Source: Oscillospiraceae bacterium (GTDB taxonomy: Bacteria > Bacillota > Clostridia > Oscillospirales > Ruminococcaceae). Taken from it: a stretch of DNA of 64,000 nt. This document shows positions 3,066-33,841 of the stretch, piece by piece (within the stretch, counting starts at the first letter, position 1; every line of letters begins with the position of its first letter). The position numbers and the translations under genes were made by a program. Below the pieces are notes generated by a model. It made no database searches, was not told the origin of the DNA, and worked only from the letters and a program-made list of their open reading frames with translations. The DNA is taken from the NCBI GenBank assembly GCA_017483465.1, contig JAFUWN010000102.1, positions 1-64,000 of the forward strand. Reading direction: 5' to 3'.

Positions 3066-3396
3066 TTACATTCGCCTCCTTAATTTAAAAAAATCAAAAT
3101 TGGGGGGGCGCAGTTTTCAGAGATGATGTTTTTTCCCGTTTCCGTGTGTATCGTGGGTTAGGTGATACAAAAACCGGCAATCTTTGGCAGATTCCGGCAG
3201 ACGGGCACACAGCGGGGCACAAAGGCAGATTTATTTCAAAAAAGAATAGAAATAAAAAGCTTCCTGTTTGCACATACTGTGTCATCATTTCTTGCCGACC
3301 GGTTCAAAGACCGGACATACTCCACGGAAATTACCTGACAAACCGTCAGCAACCTTCCGCTTCTGCGCATATTAATAACATCCATTCATCTGGACT
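3066..3396 (-). promoter_or_regulatory. S10 operon 5' leader (untranslated, about 330 nt)
   Basis: Between the predicted transcription start near 3396 and the rpsJ ATG there is no plausible gene. A self-complementary element (ACCGGTTCAAAGACCGG region, about 3299-3317) and a run of seven G on the + strand at 3102-3108 are visible. Long leaders of S10 operons are known sites of ribosomal protein feedback in other bacteria. No specific regulator binding site can be assigned here, so a regulatory role is inference. Confidence 0.4.
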
Positions 3397-3499: not shown

Positions 3500-3604
3500 A
3501 TCCGTCTGAGAAACTCCGCACCGGACAGGGTGCAGGGACTCGAACCCTGTCAACACTGCTCATGTGCACCTACGAAGTAGCCGGACACGCTGCATCAGAC
3601 GGAT
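3500..3604 (-). ncRNA. tRNA-like RNA module D (fourth transcribed, lacks the D-arm)
   Basis: The module is closed by a 9-bp helix (ATCCGTCTG with CAGACGGAT, fully complementary). Inside, in transcribed order, are the conserved GATGCAG and TACTTC words, then a perfect tRNA T-arm (CAGGG-TTCGAGT-CCCTG) and a capped helix GCACC-CTGTCC-GGTGC in the acceptor position. Unlike the other three modules it has no D-arm after the capped helix and goes straight to TTTCTCAG. It may be a degenerate copy or a specialised end unit. After it comes AT-rich sequence without a clear terminator hairpin. Confidence 0.6.
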
Positions 3605-3618
3605 TTATTTTTCATACG

Positions 3619-3749
3619 ATCCGCCTGAGAATATCAGCACCGGTATTTTTCATCAGTCGTTCTGAAATTGAACTACTGCCTTCCGGCAGACCGGATTTGC
3701 ACCGATATTTCCTGTCCCGAAGTAACCGGATTCCCTGCATCAGACGGAT
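3619..3749 (-). ncRNA. tRNA-like RNA module C (third transcribed)
   Basis: The closing helix is ATCCGTCTG with CAGGCGGAT (one G-U pair). The core holds GATGCAG, TACTTC, a T-arm ATCGG-TGCAAAT-CCGGT, a capped acceptor-like helix CTGCC-GGAA-GGCAG with a GNRA loop, then TA and a D-arm GTTC-AATTTCA-GAAC. T-arm before D-arm is the reverse of a normal tRNA, so the core is a circularly permuted tRNA with no free CCA end. It is separated from its neighbours by 14-nt AT-rich linkers that are identical on both sides. Confidence 0.65.
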
Positions 3750-3763
3750 TTATTTTTCATACG

Positions 3764-3901
3764 ATCTGCCTGAGAATCTCAGCATCAGTGTTTTTAACAG
3801 ACGCTCTCCCGAACTGAGCTACCGTCTTTCGACAGAGCGGACTCGAACCGCTGACTTTCTGTGCCCTATAGAAGTAACTGAATGCCCTGCATCAGGCAGA
3901 T
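3764..3901 (-). ncRNA. tRNA-like RNA module B (second transcribed)
   Basis: The closing helix is ATCTGCCTG with CAGGCAGAT, perfectly paired and carrying a compensatory change relative to module A. The core has GATGCAG, TACTTC, a T-arm AGCGG-TTCGAGT-CCGCT, a capped helix CTGTC-GAAA-GACGG, TA, then a D-arm GCTC-AGTTCGGGA-GAGC with the GG pair expected of a D-loop. The 3' part (TGCTGAGATTCTCAG) leads back to the closing helix. No anticodon loop is present because the anticodon stem position is the opened, closing helix. Confidence 0.65.
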
Positions 3902-3916
3902 TTAATTTTTTATCAT

Positions 3917-4051
3917 ATCTGTCTGAGAATTACAGTATCAGAATAATGCTGCTCTACCTCTGAGCTACTGTGCCGAGACACAGACCGGAATCGAACCGGT
4001 GACACGCCGATTGACAGTCGAAGTATCTGAAATACTCTGCATCAGACAGAT
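3917..4051 (-). ncRNA. tRNA-like RNA module A (first transcribed)
   Basis: This module starts within a few bases of the predicted transcription start. The closing helix is ATCTGTCTG with CAGACAGAT, all Watson-Crick. It holds GATGCAG, a small hairpin (AGTAT-TTCAG-ATACT), TACTTC, a canonical T-arm ACCGG-TTCGATT-CCGGT, a capped helix CTGTGT-CTCG-GCACAG, TA, and a canonical D-arm GCTC-AGAGGTA-GAGC. The design matches a tRNA opened at the anticodon and sealed at the acceptor end. Bacterial Y RNAs of the YrlA type, which bind Ro60, are known to carry tRNA-mimicking domains, and this is the closest known class I can name. The assignment is inference. Confidence 0.65.
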
Positions 4052-4060
4052 TTTTTTCTT

Positions 4061-4089
4061 ATTATAGCATATTATCAGGAAAATGTCAA
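4061..4089 (-). promoter_or_regulatory. Promoter of the tRNA-like RNA array
   Basis: On the minus strand TTGACA (4084-4089), a 17-nt spacer ending in TGC, and TATAAT (4061-4066) form a consensus sigma-A promoter with an extended -10. The start would fall near 4054, next to the 5' strand of module A at 4051. The -35 box lies inside the end of the upstream phosphoesterase gene. Confidence 0.8.
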
Positions 4090-4623
4090 CTCCATATTTT
4101 TTCTTGCAATGAGCTGATGTAAACTCTGCGGCGTGAAATCATTCAAATCCACTCCGGCATTGAATGCATTTTTAAATTCCTCACGCTTTAACAGCTGATT
4201 GGCAAAATTGGCATCATTATTATGAATATGCCCGTAAACATGATACCAGCCCTTGAAATAGCCATCCCATTCCAGAATAGGATAATGAAACAGAACGACT
4301 TTTCTGCCCTCGTCCTCGATCACCAGATAGGGATTGATTGTCACAAACAGATCACGGAATTTCTGATTTGCCAGGTATTTCTTATCATGATTGCCGATAA
4401 TCAAATGCTTGTTTCCGGGCAGATTTCTGATATATTCCGCAATTTCAGTATTAAAGCCGAAACTTACATCACCGATGATATAGACATCATCCTGTTCTGA
4501 AACAACTGCATTCCAGTTCTGCTTAATTACCTGATGCATTTCCTCCAGATCTGCAAACGGCCTGTGACTCATATGCAGAATATTCTTATGATGCAGATGC
4601 AGATCTGCAATATAATAAATCAT
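4075..4623 (-). CDS. Calcineurin-like metallophosphoesterase, small type
   Basis: The 182-residue protein has the ordered metal-binding motifs of this superfamily: ADLHLHH near residue 7, GDVSFG near 51, GNHD near 77, LFHYP near 110 and YGHIH near 130. These ligate a two-metal centre that hydrolyses phosphodiesters or phosphomonoesters. The substrate cannot be read from the sequence. Its start codon overlaps the end of the upstream membrane protein gene by 4 bp (ATGA), so the two are translationally coupled. The last codons overlap the -35 region of the RNA array promoter. Confidence 0.85.
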   Translation of the reverse strand: MIYYIADLHLHHKNILHMSHRPFADLEEMHQVIKQNWNAVVSEQDDVYIIGDVSFGFNTEIAEYIRNLPGNKHLIIGNHDKKYLANQKFRDLFVTINPYLVIEDEGRKVVLFHYPILEWDGYFKGWYHVYGHIHNNDANFANQLLKREEFKNAFNAGVDLNDFTPQSLHQLIARKNMELTFS

Positions 4624-5378
4624 GAAATTTCCTCCTTTAGGAATTGCTGTTCCTGTAAATACTCTCTGATTCTGATCTGTAAGAACAGAATCAGCATCGT
4701 GACGATTCTCGGCAGAGTCAGCCCCGTTCCGAGAATCAGGAACAAATTTCGGTGACAGCCGCTGAGCATAGTGCCGGATAATCTCACAGCTTTAAGAGCA
4801 GAGATCTCCGGATTTTCCAGAAATAAAAACGGTACGGCACTCAGACTCACACAGAACCGGAGATAATACAGTCCTGTCCAGAAAGCGAATATCAGACACT
4901 GCACTGTCAGAAACAACCAGATTCCGGCTTCTTCCATAAGAGCCGATTTCTCAAATGCTCTGACAGTCAGGTAACATGCCAGTACGAACGGAAAGAGCAT
5001 CAGAAATCTGATACTCTGGATTTTTCCGAAAAAATACAGAGCTTTCCAGTAGAATTTCCCATAGCCGAAGTGATATTTCACTCTGCCGAAGCCTGCCTGT
5101 CCGGAAAACCATCCGCAGACCGCACATAACATGGGTGTCAGAATGCAGAATGTGAGAAGATTCCAGAGCAGCATGAATAACATCCAGAAATGATCATGAT
5201 AAAAAAATACATCTTTTGGCAGCACTTGTTTTTGAAAGATCAGCACTCCGGCCATACTGTCGGGAATCAGTTTCATGATCAGCCATACAGCGGGAAGACT
5301 ATATGCCATAAACCATGCTGTTTTCTGATTTGCCTTCAATGTTTCTTTTGTAAAAGCCCTGAGTTCTCTGAATTTCAC
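4620..5378 (-). CDS. Multi-spanning membrane protein of unknown function
   Basis: The 252-residue product contains about five or six hydrophobic segments (for example residues 22-45, 65-90, 122-145 and 155-175) and a positively charged N-terminus. I do not recognise the family with confidence; the layout resembles DUF975-like integral membrane proteins of Firmicutes, but no decisive motif is seen. It is coupled by a 4-bp overlap to the phosphoesterase gene downstream. The upstream gap of about 60 nt is very AT-rich, with a repeated TAATATAATATT motif that could hold the promoter. Confidence 0.6.
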   Translation of the reverse strand: MKFRELRAFTKETLKANQKTAWFMAYSLPAVWLIMKLIPDSMAGVLIFQKQVLPKDVFFYHDHFWMLFMLLWNLLTFCILTPMLCAVCGWFSGQAGFGRVKYHFGYGKFYWKALYFFGKIQSIRFLMLFPFVLACYLTVRAFEKSALMEEAGIWLFLTVQCLIFAFWTGLYYLRFCVSLSAVPFLFLENPEISALKAVRLSGTMLSGCHRNLFLILGTGLTLPRIVTMLILFLQIRIREYLQEQQFLKEEIS

Positions 5379-7069: not shown

Positions 7070-8923
7070 TTATTCATTTTCATTCAGGAGTATTTTCTTG
7101 AGAGCGACAAAATCATAGATATTCACAATGCCGTCATCTGTCAGATCAGCGAGCTGATATTCTTCCTGAGAGAGAATCTGACCGCCTAGCAGATATTTCT
7201 GAACAATGATGACATCATTGACAGAAAGCTGATTGTCGCCGTCCAGATCGCCGGAGATGACCGGAGGTTCTGTTTCGGTAACTGTTGTTTCTTCTGTGGC
7301 AGTTGTCTCCGGAGTCGTGGTTGTTTCTGTCGTGGTAGTTGTTTCCGGAGTCGTAGTTGTTGTAGAAGTCGTTGTTGTCGTAGATGTAGTAGTTGTCGTT
7401 GATGTCGTTGTTGTGGATGTGGTTGTAGTAGTGACAGTTGTTTCCGGAGTTGTAGTTGTTGTTTCTGTCGTGGTTTTCTTCTTTCCGGTTGTAGTTGTTT
7501 CTGTAGTGGTTGCAGTTGATTCTGTTGTAGTAGTTGTAGATTCTGTCGTAGTTGTTGTTTCTGTGGTGGTTTCTGTTTCCGCTGCGGATTCCGGAAGTTC
7601 ATATACATATTCATCCGGTTCGGAATCCGGTGCTGTGGAAACATAATAATATAACTTATTATTTTTTTCATATATGCCGTACAGATAGCCATTCTGAAGC
7701 TGTTCGGAATCCAGATTGAACAGCCATGTTACCTGCTGATCTTTCCATGCAAAGACTGCTTCCGGAGTGGTATAATAGATCACATCTCCCACGATAGCCG
7801 GAGTTACATAAGTATTGGAATAATAATAGCCTTCTTTCTCGAATACATACCATCTTGCCCATTTCGCATCCAGAGAGTTCAGATGCTGAATTTCTGTCGT
7901 ACAGGTATCGGCATCAAAACTGCACAGGTCAAACCAGGCTGTTGTATTGCTTGATTCCGGATAGGAATGAATAGCAAACCATCCGCCCTGATACGGCTGA
8001 ATCGCTGTAATACAGTTATTCCAGAAACCGTCAGCATAAAAATCAGAAACATTCAGATCATAAACCGAATGACCGGAAGTCAGCACCCAGTCTGTTGAGG
8101 TATGTCCTGTATTAGTCATAATTTCATCTGATTTCAGGAAATTATCATGCTGTACCATTCCGGGATGATTATTATAAACATCATCCCATGTAATATCGAC
8201 ATGATACCAGTTTCCGTCAATATAAACCAGATTCCAGCCGTGAGCGATACTTTCGCTTTCCACGAGCATAGCATTCACGCCGACACGGTGCAGAACAACG
8301 TCATACAGCCATGCATAGGCCTCGCAGACAGCTTTTTCTCTTTTCAGCATTCCATAGGCAGTATGTTTTAATTCCGTCTGATCAGAAGTTTCATATTCCG
8401 TATAGTCATAATCATAATGCACAGCAAGATAATCATGCAGATACAGGGCTTTTTCAGCATCTGACCAGTTCATGTCCACACCGGAAACGATCGTATCCAG
8501 TTCCTGCATTATATTCTGATAAACTGCATTATAATTTTCTGTTTCCAGATATTCCGGAGCCAGCTGCATACTTCCGTTATGAGGCACCTGATAAGAAATT
8601 GTCCGTCTGGAAGTCAGAATTCCGACATCCCATGCACTGACGACACTGCGATAGATTTTCATGACAGAATCCATATCATCTGACGTACTGTTAATATAAT
8701 TCGTTCTGCTGTTTCCGACTTTGATAATTTCCTGATGTTCCGCAAGACCCTGATAAATATCCTCAGCGATTTTCTGTGTTTGTTCGGCACTCAGCGAGCC
8801 GACTGCACCGAGATAAGAAAAATCAATTGTTGTTTCAGCGGCATTTGCCGGATATACAGCCCCCTGTGACAGCAGCAGACAACATGCCGCTGCTGCAGCA
8901 GATTTCTTAAAAAAATTCCCCAT
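7070..8923 (-). CDS. Secreted transglutaminase-like protein with Thr-rich linker and C-terminal dockerin
   Basis: The 617-residue protein has a signal peptide (residues 1-28, ending around ANA). A transglutaminase-like cysteine domain covers about residues 150-260, with the catalytic Cys in AVCEAYAWLY, the His in AHGWNLVY and the Asp in YHVDITWDD. A middle beta-rich region of unknown role follows, then about 110 residues almost wholly of Thr, Glu, Pro and Ser, then a type I dockerin with two calcium loops (DLDGDNQLSVND and DLTDDGIVNIYD). The dockerin implies attachment to a cohesin scaffold outside the cell. Ruminococcal cellulosomes are known to carry such transglutaminase or protease modules. 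The target of the enzyme is unknown. Confidence 0.88.
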   Translation of the reverse strand: MGNFFKKSAAAAACCLLLSQGAVYPANAAETTIDFSYLGAVGSLSAEQTQKIAEDIYQGLAEHQEIIKVGNSRTNYINSTSDDMDSVMKIYRSVVSAWDVGILTSRRTISYQVPHNGSMQLAPEYLETENYNAVYQNIMQELDTIVSGVDMNWSDAEKALYLHDYLAVHYDYDYTEYETSDQTELKHTAYGMLKREKAVCEAYAWLYDVVLHRVGVNAMLVESESIAHGWNLVYIDGNWYHVDITWDDVYNNHPGMVQHDNFLKSDEIMTNTGHTSTDWVLTSGHSVYDLNVSDFYADGFWNNCITAIQPYQGGWFAIHSYPESSNTTAWFDLCSFDADTCTTEIQHLNSLDAKWARWYVFEKEGYYYSNTYVTPAIVGDVIYYTTPEAVFAWKDQQVTWLFNLDSEQLQNGYLYGIYEKNNKLYYYVSTAPDSEPDEYVYELPESAAETETTTETTTTTESTTTTTESTATTTETTTTGKKKTTTETTTTTPETTVTTTTTSTTTTSTTTTTSTTTTTSTTTTTPETTTTTETTTTPETTATEETTVTETEPPVISGDLDGDNQLSVNDVIIVQKYLLGGQILSQEEYQLADLTDDGIVNIYDFVALKKILLNENE

Positions 8924-9111
8924 GGAAAACGCTCCTTTCTGTCTAAACGATTTATTTTATTTTAACACCATGCTCAAAAAAAGTCAATATGTTTTATATT
9001 TTTTGTAGAACTCCACAAATCCGGCACAATGTTTTTGTTTATGTATACTATCATTATAACTGAAAAACCTGAAAAAAGTCTTAAAATTTTTTAAATTTTT
9101 ATAAATAAAAA

Positions 9112-9141
9112 CCGTCCGGATTTTTTTACCAAACCGGACGG
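9112..9141 (-). terminator. Terminator downstream of mscL
   Basis: CCGTCCGG and CCGGACGG form a stem with a 14-nt loop. On the minus strand it is followed by TTTTTATTT. It lies 33 nt after the mscL stop codon. Confidence 0.8.
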
Positions 9142-9173
9142 CCGAAAATTCAGATTTTCTGTCAATTGCTGTC

Positions 9174-9626
9174 TTATTTCTTATTCTGTTCTGCAAGAAG
9201 ATCACGGATTTCCGTAAGCAGTACTTCTTCTTTGGAAGGCTCTTTGGGAGCTTCTGCGGCTTCTTCTTCTTTTTTCTTTCCGAGTTCCATAATCGACTTT
9301 ACGCCTTTCATCATCAGGAACAAAACAAAAGCCATAATCAGGAAATTAATCACAGCAGTAATAAACGCACCATAATTAATATACTGGTCACCGATCAGAT
9401 GAATTTTACCCTGTACTTCCGTACCGCCGATACAGCCGATAATCGGATTGATGAAATTTTCTGTCAGTGCTGTTACAATATCCTGAAACGCACCACCGAT
9501 GATGACACCGATTGCCATGTCCATGACGTTGCCCTTGAGTGCGAATTCCTTGAATTCTTTCAGGAAACCGCCTGCTTTTTCTGCACCGGCAGCAGCCATG
9601 TCTTTTGCTTTGTTTTCGTTTGCCAT
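9174..9626 (-). CDS. mscL: Large-conductance mechanosensitive channel
   Basis: MscL opens under membrane tension to release solutes during hypo-osmotic shock. The 150-residue length is normal. The N-terminal amphipathic stretch [20 protein letters not shown] with [11 protein letters not shown] is the TM1 signature, and a second hydrophobic helix (residues about 78-100) is followed by a charged Glu/Lys/Ala-rich tail. The first 15 residues are a slightly longer leader than in Escherichia coli. A GGAGATAA ribosome binding site precedes the ATG at 9626. It stands as a single gene with its own terminator. Confidence 0.95.
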
Positions 9627-9712
9627 AAGTATTATCTCCTTTTTGAAATTTTAAATTTTTATATTCAGAACAGTCTTCACTGTTTCAGAATCTTGATATA
9701 AATTAATTTATA

Positions 9713-11197
9713 TTAATCTTTCGTGCTCTTGGGGAAAATGCCCTGATTCAGCTGTTCAAGAGCCTTTGCAATTTCGGCAGATTCAATTGAATCATATGCC
9801 TGCTGAACCACTTCTTCTGTAAGGGCTTTTCTTGCGAGCGGATCATCTGCCATGGATTCCAGTGTCACTTCGGCATCAATCATAGAACGTCTGGATTTTT
9901 TACCGCCATATTTCATTTCTCTGATCTTATCATCCACAGCCTTGTCATCGCCGTCTATAGAAACACCGAGCATTTCTACTTTATGTTTTTTACTATCACC
10001 AAAGATTTCATCAGGGTCCACAATAATTGTTTTATGCTTAGGTTTTTCTTTATTTTTCTTGCTTCTGAAAAATTTCAGGCCCTCGCTTTTGGATTCTTTA
10101 GGCTCCGGCGGAGGTTCGGGAGCAGGAGGAGGCGGCTCGGATTTTCTGACAGGTTTAGAAACCGGACTTCTGGAAACGGTTTTTTCAGAATTCTGATACA
10201 GATTTTTTTCCGAAACGCTTTTGACCTCATCTGCCGGGACATCCACAGCAAATGTAGAATTCCCGTTTCCGGTATTCATCTGATATTCTTTCTGTTTCGA
10301 TTCAAAAATTTTTTTGAGAACGGTAGTTTCATCCGGAGGTTCCTGAGAAAGTCTGGCCTGGGGTACAAAAGCAGTACGGGCATCTTCCCGGAGCAGTTCC
10401 TGAGCATTCATGGGCTGCTGACCATAACCGGCCTGCATTTGTTTCTGCTGCTGCATTCTTGCGAAGAAAGAGCCTGTACCCTGTACATTTTGCTGCTGCT
10501 GTGCAGCGGTATACATAGCCGAAGCGAGTGAAGAAGCACGGATAGCAGGTCTGTCCGGAACAGAAACCGCAGGTTGTTCCGGCTGTTCACCGGGACGGGG
10601 CAGCACCGGAACAGGAGGCGGCTTCACATTATTCTGAGGGCTAAACTGGGTATTTTCCCCGGAGGCCGGCGGCATCTGCTGAGGATACCTCTGCTGCGGC
10701 TGCATCTGCTGGGATTGCATCTGCTGAGACTGCATCTGCTGGGATTGCATTTGCTGGGATTGCATTTGCTGAGACTGCATCTGCTGGGAGGGAATCACCT
10801 GTCCAACAGGCACCATATTATACACAGGTTTTCCGGCGGCATCCCGCCCGACAATTTTTGGCATCATTTGTACATAAACTGGTTTTCCGGTTCTGTCATA
10901 CATCAGCTGAACATAGACCTGATTCCCATTTGCATCATACATGATCTGCATATTCCCCGTATTCTGCGGCGGCGGCTGTACAGGCTGATTTTGTGCCGGA
11001 TACGGAATCTGATTATACTGCTGCTGGGGCATTGGCTGATTTCTCCTTGCAGCGGAATACGCATCGGCTCTGGAATAGCCTGTCTGACTGGACTTTGAAA
11101 AAAATCCCTGCTGTCTGGTCTGCAAAGGATAATTGCACCGGACACAATAAGCAAGATTATTCTGCGGCTGCTGCATCTGACAATTCGGACAAATCAT
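9713..11197 (-). CDS. Zinc-ribbon and Gln/Pro-rich low-complexity protein, unknown function
   Basis: The 494-residue protein starts with a short zinc ribbon (MICPNCQMQQ then YCVRCNYP, two CxxC pairs). A Gln/Pro/Met-rich region follows, with six to seven copies of a QMQSQ-type pentapeptide (residues about 140-170), then acidic and Pro-rich segments and a basic SKKHK and KKSRR part. There is no signal peptide or membrane segment, so it is probably cytosolic. I do not recognise a family. The ribosome binding site is weak. The next gene upstream is about 130 nt away, so it may be transcribed alone. Confidence 0.6.
   Translation of the reverse strand: MICPNCQMQQPQNNLAYCVRCNYPLQTRQQGFFSKSSQTGYSRADAYSAARRNQPMPQQQYNQIPYPAQNQPVQPPPQNTGNMQIMYDANGNQVYVQLMYDRTGKPVYVQMMPKIVGRDAAGKPVYNMVPVGQVIPSQQMQSQQMQSQQMQSQQMQSQQMQSQQMQPQQRYPQQMPPASGENTQFSPQNNVKPPPVPVLPRPGEQPEQPAVSVPDRPAIRASSLASAMYTAAQQQQNVQGTGSFFARMQQQKQMQAGYGQQPMNAQELLREDARTAFVPQARLSQEPPDETTVLKKIFESKQKEYQMNTGNGNSTFAVDVPADEVKSVSEKNLYQNSEKTVSRSPVSKPVRKSEPPPPAPEPPPEPKESKSEGLKFFRSKKNKEKPKHKTIIVDPDEIFGDSKKHKVEMLGVSIDGDDKAVDDKIREMKYGGKKSRRSMIDAEVTLESMADDPLARKALTEEVVQQAYDSIESAEIAKALEQLNQGIFPKSTKD
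10695..10790 (-). repeat. In-frame 15-bp tandem repeat in the Gln-rich gene
   Basis: About six copies of a 15-bp unit (variants of TGCTGGGATTGCATC) encode the SQQMQ pentapeptide. Copies differ at a few third positions. Because the unit is a multiple of three, gain or loss of copies keeps the frame and changes protein length only. Confidence 0.8.
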
Positions 11198-15748: not shown

Positions 15749-15773
15749 TGAATTAAACTTGAATCGTTCCTCA

Positions 15774-15886
15774 TCTCTCGGTAATACCGCAGGATTTAGC
15801 ACCATCAACAAAAAAATGTCAGGTTGCCGGACGTCACAGGACCTGTTTCCTCAGTCGCTCTTGATAAGGTTAGTTGCATAAGAGAG
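15774..15886 (-). promoter_or_regulatory. metK: SAM-I riboswitch (S-box) aptamer
   Basis: Read on the minus strand the leader contains CTTATCAAGAG, GACTGAGGAAAC, GGCAACC and GGTGCTAAATCC in the order and spacing of the S-box consensus. The P1 helix pairs CTCTCT with GAGAGA at 15881-15886 and 15774-15779. SAM binding in this class favours the terminator, shutting off metK. A consensus promoter lies just upstream. Confidence 0.95.
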
Positions 15887-16004: not shown

Positions 16005-16641
16005 TTAGAATCAGTATCTGATACAACACATCTGCACAGGCTTTTATTCACCTTGCATGGACAGCTTCTCAATGTATTCGGCCACCGGGAGAATAAGTCT
16101 GAACAGACAGGAGCGACCCGCTGCTTCTTACCCTGCATTGCTGCCATAGCCCGGACAGGATTTATACCTGCAATACCGCCACAGCATTCAGAAATAAAAT
16201 CATAATTTCCATAGGGGATTAACCTATATTAACTGTACCTTACGGCAGTATACTTCCTTCAACTGCTGTACGGATTTCTCCGCACAGTATCGGCACCCCC
16301 TCTTGGCTGGACGTTCTTGCGAACTACCTGTGGCGGCTCATGTTTCCACACATGGTCTTACAGGCTTCTTCCTCCCCATGGAGGCGGTCTATTGCGAGGG
16401 GCAGTCGGTCAGAATGCCTTACATCTACATACACCTCATGTGCTGTATCTTCTCTGTTGAACAGGCTTTCGCTCTGTCTTCTGAAACATCGTGTTACCAC
16501 ATTATTTCAATCTCAAAGCCGCCTTGCAAACGTATCCGTCTGCCTGACGACTCAGCGGTTCCGATACACCCGTGCAGAGCAGCCGGCTCTCATTTTAACA
16601 CACGGTTATGCAGACATGCTGTATCAGATACTGATAAAATA
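16005..16641 (-). ncRNA. Large structured noncoding RNA of about 630 nt, unassigned (ROOL-like candidate)
   Basis: The predicted transcript starts about 7 nt after a consensus minus-strand promoter and is closed by a 26-nt terminal helix: 16609-16634 pairs with 16011-16036 with only three mismatch or wobble positions. Inside are many short hairpins with stable loops on the transcribed strand, for example GTTC-GCAA-GAAC (16313-16324), a 7-bp stem with GAAA loop (16268-16285), CCTCC-ATGG-GGAGG (16371-16384) and a GTAA-capped stem (16234-16251). No credible protein gene is present. It does not match tmRNA, RNase P, 6S or SRP RNA signatures known to me. Size, layout and host type resemble the ROOL class of large rumen RNAs, but that is a guess. 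Confidence 0.6.
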
Positions 16642-31480: not shown

Positions 31481-31500
31481 CCGTAATCATCAATATAAAC

Positions 31501-31589
31501 TTGACTTCCTACGGCGGCATGATCCGCATCAGGTAAAGGGTCGAAGTCTGACACTTCCTCTCAGCCTGCCGAACAGACTCCCCTGTCAA
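31501..31589 (-). promoter_or_regulatory. TPP riboswitch (THI element)
   Basis: The minus strand reads GGCTGAGAGGAAG, then CTTCGACCC, TTTACCTGATGCGGATCATGCC split in two parts, and GCCGTAGGAAG, which is the THI-box order with P1 formed by TTGAC (31585-31589) and GTCAA (31501-31505). TPP binding should favour the terminator downstream and lower expression of thiW to tenA. A -10-like TATGAT lies at 31597-31602. Confidence 0.93.
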
Positions 31590-31724
31590 TATTTTTATCA
31601 TAGCATAAAAACATGAATAAACTATGAATTTTTTGCAGATAAATTATGAATCATAAAAATCTTTACTTTTTGATTTTTCTATGCTATAATATAGCAGAAA
31701 TCAGAAATTGCAGGAGGTTTGTTT

Positions 31725-33776: not shown

Positions 33777-33805
33777 TTGACAATTTTTTTGCAATATGCT
33801 ATAAT
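33777..33805 (+). promoter_or_regulatory. glpK: Promoter of glpK
   Basis: TTGACA (33777-33782), 17 nt, then TATAAT (33800-33805) with an extended TGC. It places the start about 30 nt before the glpK ATG. Confidence 0.85.
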
Positions 33806-33841
33806 AAGAAAAATATTATTTTCCGGAAAGGACTGCTATTT

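Follow-up and report, generated by a model that had tools for sequence, protein, structure and literature searches.

The window, by which we mean the whole stretch of 64,000 nucleotides that was analysed, comes from a Ruminococcus bacterium (G000 among the genomes compared here) and carries, beside ribosomal protein genes, an array of four RNA units (U1-U4) at 3500-4051 on the minus strand:

4061-4089, minus strand: sigma-70 promoter, TTGACA-17-TATAAT, with TG preceding the second hexamer
3917-4051, minus strand: U1, 135 nt, putative Y RNA; head tRNA-like and permuted, likely including an anticodon-arm mimic
4008-4020, minus strand: candidate anticodon-arm mimic of U1, CGA-CTGTCAA-TCG (tRNA positions 29-31, 32-38 and 39-41)
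3984-4000, minus strand: T-arm of U1, ACCGG-TTCGATT-CCGGT
3968-3983, minus strand: capped acceptor-like helix of U1, CTGTGT-CTCG-GCACAG
3951-3965, minus strand: D-arm of U1, GCTC-AGAGGTA-GAGC, with UA (8-9) just before it
3764-3901, minus strand: U2, 138 nt, putative Y RNA; head tRNA-like and permuted
3852-3836, 3835-3822 and 3819-3803, minus strand: T-arm, cap and D-arm of U2
3619-3749, minus strand: U3, 131 nt, putative Y RNA; head tRNA-like and permuted, without the D-loop GG or T55
3706-3690, 3689-3676 and 3673-3659, minus strand: T-arm, cap and D-arm of U3
3500-3604, minus strand: U4, 105 nt, putative Y RNA; head a T-arm minihelix, D-arm absent
3292-3373, minus strand: S10-Clostridia ribosomal protein leader, 127 nt 3′ of U4

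A sequence-only reading of this DNA had described four units of 105-138 nt, linkers of 14-15 nt and a TTGACA-17-TATAAT promoter. All were recovered, with linkers of 15, 14 and 14 nt between successive units and a 12/12 promoter at 4089-4061 whose −10 element ends 9 nt before the start of U1. The conserved closing helix, given at first as 9 bp, comprises 10 pairs in each of U1-U4. Every unit is opened by ATCYGYCTGATGCAG and ended by TTCTCAGRCRGAT, and TACTTC lies 3′ of the second stem. The handle is made up of the basal stem, GAUGCAG, the second stem and UACUUC, with UUCUC in its return strand. In U1-U3 the full order is basal stem, GATGCAG internal loop, second stem (CAG/CTG or CGG/CCG), TACTTC, T-arm, capped acceptor-like helix, UA, D-arm and return. 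A tRNA-like domain is generally present in at least one bacterial Y RNA per species, and its succession of T-arm, capped acceptor helix and D-arm was found in U1-U3 and not in U4. Among the outer five cap bases, 4-5 pair within a unit compared with 3-4 between successive tRNA-bearing units, a modest difference, and folding z-scores of the single units U1-U4 were only −1.21 (U1 without its last 7 nt), −1.66, −2.52 and −2.28. Near-copies of the promoter region at ~4049-4089 (83-87% over ~40 nt) occur at other sites of the genome and within the genus, including G000:C10:56042-56085, G000:C50:109438-109474 and window positions 33777-33816; these are probably strong consensus promoters.

In U4 the T-arm (3549-3533) is flanked on the minus strand by the helix GGTG (3570-3567)/CACC (3532-3529), and this acceptor-like helix encloses the T-arm in the normal order, with the handle kept and the D-arm absent. 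The statement that the T-arm precedes the D-arm in every unit was thus borne out for U1-U3 and fails for U4. Likewise, capped acceptor-like helices with covariation had been proposed for all four units and were found for U1-U3 in a 17-unit alignment, but the U4 cap GCACC-CTGTCC-GGTGC was rejected, since it draws on bases that we assign to the second stem. For the predicted fold of the U4 class (six sequences), 92.4% of cells pair compared with 30.0 to 54.6% in slid controls, 5 pairs are changed on both sides (shuffles give 3.6, and 97 of 500 are as high as the real count), and the GGTG/CACC helix contributes one doubly changed pair, in 2 of the 6 sequences. Covariation in this class is weak, and the U4 fold is backed less firmly than those of U1-U3.

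A DNA search of 61 genomes returned long array matches in five genomes besides our own; the array of G014 was found via a weak match in the same search and that of G061 via a pattern search. There are four units per array in G000, G008, G027 and G061, three in G018, G020 and G029, and two in G014. Seventeen of these 27 units from eight genomes entered the tRNA-bearing alignment (A3) and six the U4-class alignment (A4), with G008 unit 1, G014 unit 2, G027 unit 2 and G061 unit 2 omitted from both. A promoter matching at 11 or 12 of 12 positions lies 7-9 nt 5′ of unit 1 in 7/8 arrays, the window's included, the exception being G014 (10/12, 40 nt 5′ of unit 1). As a genome-wide marker the pattern GATGCAG-N4-12-TACTTC was too loose, matching 35/38 genus genomes, and it was kept only for clusters.

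Across the 17 tRNA-bearing units, 89% of cells pair compared with 28-44% in slid controls, and 19 of 32 pairs show change on both sides. Covariation at homologous loci, which the earlier reading had made decisive, was therefore observed: 47 cells are doubly changed, whereas shuffles give 16.2 and slid structures 5-15. Covariants include GCTC/GAGC, GTTC/GAAC and GTGT/ACAC in the D-arm and CTGT/ACAG and TCAT/ATGA in the cap. Tertiary marks were counted in 20 rows (the 17 aligned units plus G026_1, G026_2 and G035_1). The tertiary pair 15-48 is G-C in 11, A-U in 8 and A-A in 1, with 0 of 20,000 shuffles as good, and the D-loop GG is present in 13/14 rows with T55C56 and in none of the 6 rows without (Fisher 1.8e-4); these shuffle and P values overstate the evidence because the aligned rows are related. 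Helix 6 of A3 (the D-arm) is 68.8% paired, and the structure string of R1, a covariance model built from the 17 tRNA-bearing array units only, puts the 3′ strand of the D-arm in the wrong place for several rows; a separate count gave four D-arm pairs in 17/17 rows, a figure biased towards pairing because the D-arm was placed by a best-pairing search. Overall, across 17 tRNA-bearing units from eight genomes the predicted head shows strong covariation, down to its tertiary pairing.

The location claimed for the four-unit array, at the S10 operon, was confirmed, and related genomes keep it. An S10-Clostridia leader follows the array in 7/8 cases, with a gap of 127 nt here, 111-128 nt in five relatives and 766 nt in G008; in G020 the leader was not found between the array and the contig end. 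In the window a promoter-like site (11/12) at 3431-3403 lies between array and leader. Other RNAs were noted in passing: a match to RAGATH-18 RNA near the S10 genes of G014 (L055 1124-1189, minus strand) and, elsewhere in the window, a ROOL RNA (16018-16630, minus strand, 220 bits) adjoining a SAM riboswitch (15768-15870, minus strand), and a TPP riboswitch (31489-31594, minus strand).

That no Ro60 gene was in sight holds inside the window; however, the search of the same genome that the sequence-only reading had proposed found a TROVE/Ro60 gene on another contig (G000:C47:11076-12719), the sole TROVE match in the genome. The array is on contig C83, and even with abutting contigs the two would lie at least ~15 kb apart. 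Against PF05731 the divergent protein scores 28 bits (cut-off 23). Its matches include two TROVE structures, 9l5y and 9kop (E 7e-9), and a nine-row profile, whose rows include the divergent G026 protein and one protein twice, matches TROVE structures at E 2e-29. The protein contains DNSGS, a DxSGS motif of the MIDAS type. Directly downstream of this ro60 are three same-strand RNAs with the array handle (locus L034):

8731-8824, strand as ro60: first ro60-downstream RNA
8842-8933, strand as ro60: second ro60-downstream RNA
8950-9275, strand as ro60: third ro60-downstream RNA

GAAGCAG replaces GATGCAG in the first and third of these, and the third ends in its closing stem followed by seven T; automatic calling got the closing stems of several RNAs wrong, chiefly at ro60 loci. 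R1 finds two of the three at E 4.7e-9 and 2.9e-7, neither having been used to build it, and the third is not among the matches listed. Together with the four array units, these three bring the count of putative Y RNAs in the genome to seven. Downstream RNAs with the same handle are also found in seven other genus genomes of this ro60 lineage. In G026, three tandem units (R1 35.2, 51.0 and 24.4 bits) lie immediately upstream of a ro60 scoring 84 bits against TROVE, and the T-cap-D head occurs in two of the three. The basal module of the array is thus common with ro60-linked Y RNAs. Closeness to ro60 was found for the three L034 RNAs and the G026 array and not for the array in the window; bacterial Y RNAs are usually encoded near ro60, as their usual state and not by definition. 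In G026 and G035 the handle has ATTG in place of GATGCAG, as if, judging from these two genomes, handle and Ro60 lineage had changed together; by locus, L057 and L107 carry ATTG and L034 and L060 carry GATGCAG. Nearly all Bacillota Y RNAs examined retain UACUUC, an exception being UGCUUC at L049 7967. Neighbouring genes at L034 include one after the Y RNA cluster (9333-9854) with a weak EndoU-like match (21.4 bits, cut-off 25.3) and a macro-domain gene upstream of ro60 (3511-4308).

R1 scored U1 at 123.2 bits (U1, U2 and U3 are among its building units) and U4, absent from them, at 55.7 bits. Within the genus R1 matched 12/38 genomes at E≤0.01 and TROVE was found in 10/38, all 10 overlapping; G025, G026 and G035, the TROVE genomes outside the making of R1, were all matched. 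The R1-positive genus genomes in which TROVE was not found are G020, which bears an array and is 77% complete, and G001, whose match is 36 nt long (E 0.0017) and by its letters a simple hairpin. TROVE was present in 3/297 genomes drawn from the family, all three of our own genus. Across the phylum, R1 matched 8/398 genomes at E≤1e-4 and TROVE 10/398, with 8/8 overlapping (Fisher 3e-15, species not being independent), and R1 gave no match at this threshold among the 388 phylum genomes without TROVE. The sole contributor to R1 among the eight was our own genome. The two 398-genome draws, for R1 and for TROVE, had identical genome ids among the matches listed, and the R1 search applied stricter filters at which weak matches are lost. 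Two phylum TROVE genomes, G450 and G556, gave no R1 match at E≤1e-4. At the nine other phylum TROVE loci, a full-length R1 match of 43.5-64.2 bits lies within ~0.5 kb of the TROVE gene or match in 7/9, the eighth (L138; G556) scores 20.6 bits, and at the ninth a real tRNA cluster scores 15.9 bits. The TROVE match of G356 has an internal stop.

Comparison with Rfam, also proposed earlier, gave matches of U1 (43.1 bits) and U2 (34.9 bits) to YrlA (RF02553), but the gathering score of 69 was missed, and the units are therefore not filed under RF02553 as Rfam delimits it. U3 and U4 are absent from the YrlA matches listed. Of the 398 phylum genomes none reached the gathering score, and in seven the TROVE-linked RNAs scored 27.9-39.9 bits. 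A sub-threshold YrlA score was rejected as proof, such matches being found in 248/398 phylum and 6/14 control genomes. Such matches, which controls including E. coli and B. subtilis also give, are an annotation trap; our guess is that they fall at tRNA gene junctions.

Could the units be tandem degenerate copies of ordinary tRNA genes, their junctions merely looking permuted? The Rfam tRNA model gives 27.6 bits for U1 and 24.6 for the U1-U2 junction (gathering 29), sub-threshold YrlA matches are common, and in another genome ARAGORN calls a tRNA of unknown type over a Y RNA match at L135. In the window, however, ARAGORN finds no tRNA, caps covary within units, closing stems and handle are conserved even in RNAs with no tRNA part, and R1 barely scores a true tRNA cluster (15.9 bits). 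Normal arm order with free acceptor ends, as in transfer RNA, was not found in the array, and we give this explanation almost no credence. At G026:C75 (L108 ~4868-4993) two successive T-cap-D cores lack the handle; they may be degenerate normal tRNAs and were omitted. A cis-acting leader of the S10 operon, sensing tRNA or translation state, would account for the S10 leader directly downstream of the array in most relatives, but a separate promoter-like site stands between array and leader, the leader is 766 nt away in G008, and kindred RNAs adjoin ro60; we regard such a role as very improbable.

In U1, the segment UUCGA-CUGUCAA-UCGGC-GUGUC-T-arm has exact tRNA spacing (32-38, 39-43, 44-48), and the partners for pairs 27-43 and 28-42 come from two bases 3′ of A26. 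Pairs 29-31/39-41 are all present, with loops of 7-9 allowed, in 15 of 28 Y RNAs (the 17 aligned units plus 11, the match at L138 omitted; rows G419 and G725 are identical in this region), compared with a mean of 4.1 and a maximum of 11 in 2,000 controls with the following 22 nt shuffled. The arm is absent from 13/28, U2 and U3 included, and present in 6/7 TROVE-linked Y RNAs of other Bacillota. In the 15 arm-bearing RNAs, pair 31-39 is A-U (11), C-G (2), G-C (1) or U-A (1), and the loop has 8 or 9 bases in four. The seven-base loops are CUGUUAA (5), CUUCUAA (3), CUGUCAA, CUCCUAA and AUUUAGG, with GUC at 34-36 in the window and UCU, CCU or GUU elsewhere. The minimum-free-energy fold of U1, which ignores tertiary contacts, prefers another hairpin (−45.0 compared with −35.6 kcal/mol with the anticodon arm). 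We hold it likely that U1 carries an anticodon-arm mimic, common to ro60-linked Y RNAs of other Bacillota.

The anatomy of the array, its covariation, the common handle, the co-occurrence with TROVE and the ro60 linkage in relatives are what the analysis shows, and the locus is very probably an array of co-transcribed Y RNAs whose handle would bind an unlinked Ro60 and whose heads would serve as tethers. We favour Y RNAs because the handle is common with the ro60-downstream RNAs and the units co-occur with TROVE in genus and phylum. Of the earlier proposal, a Y-RNA-like or otherwise new tRNA-mimic family, the first part therefore stands and the second lacks support. One promoter would drive a single transcript of four Y RNAs, to be processed into units, and the common handle of U1-U4 would be bound by the Ro60 (TROVE) protein. 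The U1-U3 heads resemble tRNAs whose acceptor end is sealed and whose chain is opened in or beside the anticodon stem, and would therefore be able to dock on tRNA-binding surfaces. By analogy with other species, the head may tether Ro60 to an RNA-processing partner as in RYPER, most simply PNPase, and the Y RNA may gate access to Ro60.

Alternatively, Ro60 might be a carrier of heads that act mainly as decoys or substrates of tRNA enzymes such as anticodon nucleases, modification enzymes and RNase P or Z, the U1 anticodon loop being the active part. The retention of C32-U33 and A37-A38 in 10/11 seven-base loops while 34-36 vary would suit this, as would the suggestion that YrlA is a possible competitive inhibitor of anticodon nuclease (PMC7790460, excerpt). 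However, U2 and U3 lack the anticodon arm and U4, in our reading, any such segment, and that same study detected no YrlA fragments, which leaves this alternative improbable. A further reading would have Ruminococcus employ Ro60 as a common socket with exchangeable RNA heads, partly in a separate, co-transcribed array. The U1 class would then be a whole tRNA with its anticodon arm, opened in the anticodon stem between 28 and 29 and variable in its anticodon, through which Ro60 complexes could offer anticodon-loop enzymes a decoy or substrate loop; we offer this tentatively, as a rather doubtful proposal.

The closest known systems were consulted as excerpts. The permuted, capped tRNA core has a precedent in bacterial Y RNA and hence is not new, 6CU1 reportedly forming circularly permuted superpositions with tRNAs (PMC11472068). 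By the Rfam structure annotation YrlA (RF02553; PDB 6CU1) has, like U1-U3, a basal stem, second stem, T-arm, capped acceptor helix, UA and D-arm, and the array's genome also has a Ro60-type gene; the array units differ in scoring below gathering, in being unlinked from ro60, in standing four in tandem and in their GAUGCAG/UACUUC handle. Whereas D, T and acceptor arms are named for YrlA (PMC8394870), U1 has a likely anticodon-arm mimic and U4 lacks a D-arm. The Salmonella rsr-yrlBA-rtcBA locus likewise places Y RNAs and a Ro60 ortholog in one genome (PMC7790460), but there the Y RNAs are inside the Ro60-gene operon and here 4/7 are at the S10 operon. YrlA, Rsr and PNPase are treated in PMC8394870, PMC4726728 and PMC7790460, and as of 2020 Ro60/Y RNA functions in bacteria had been studied only in Deinococcus radiodurans (PMC7790460). 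There, RYPER (Rsr-Y RNA-PNPase) uses the Y RNA as tether and gate (PMC4726728, PMC8394870), the principle proposed here, whereas the array is known from its sequence and we infer the binding. Excerpts of PMC7824862, PMC9569102 and PMC8058203 mention neither arrays nor an anticodon arm beside Y RNA, YrlA or TROVE, and a survey of titles and abstract openings returned neither; absence from print is not claimed.

Possibly new, then, are seven Y RNAs in one genome with four arrayed at the S10 operon away from ro60, and different heads on one handle, U1 with a likely anticodon-arm mimic. If this mimic is real, some Y RNAs would copy the whole tRNA and not three arms alone. A genome in which seven Y RNAs have one handle in common while their heads are of three or more types (permuted tRNA, T-arm minihelix, or without any tRNA part) would make the role of the head testable.
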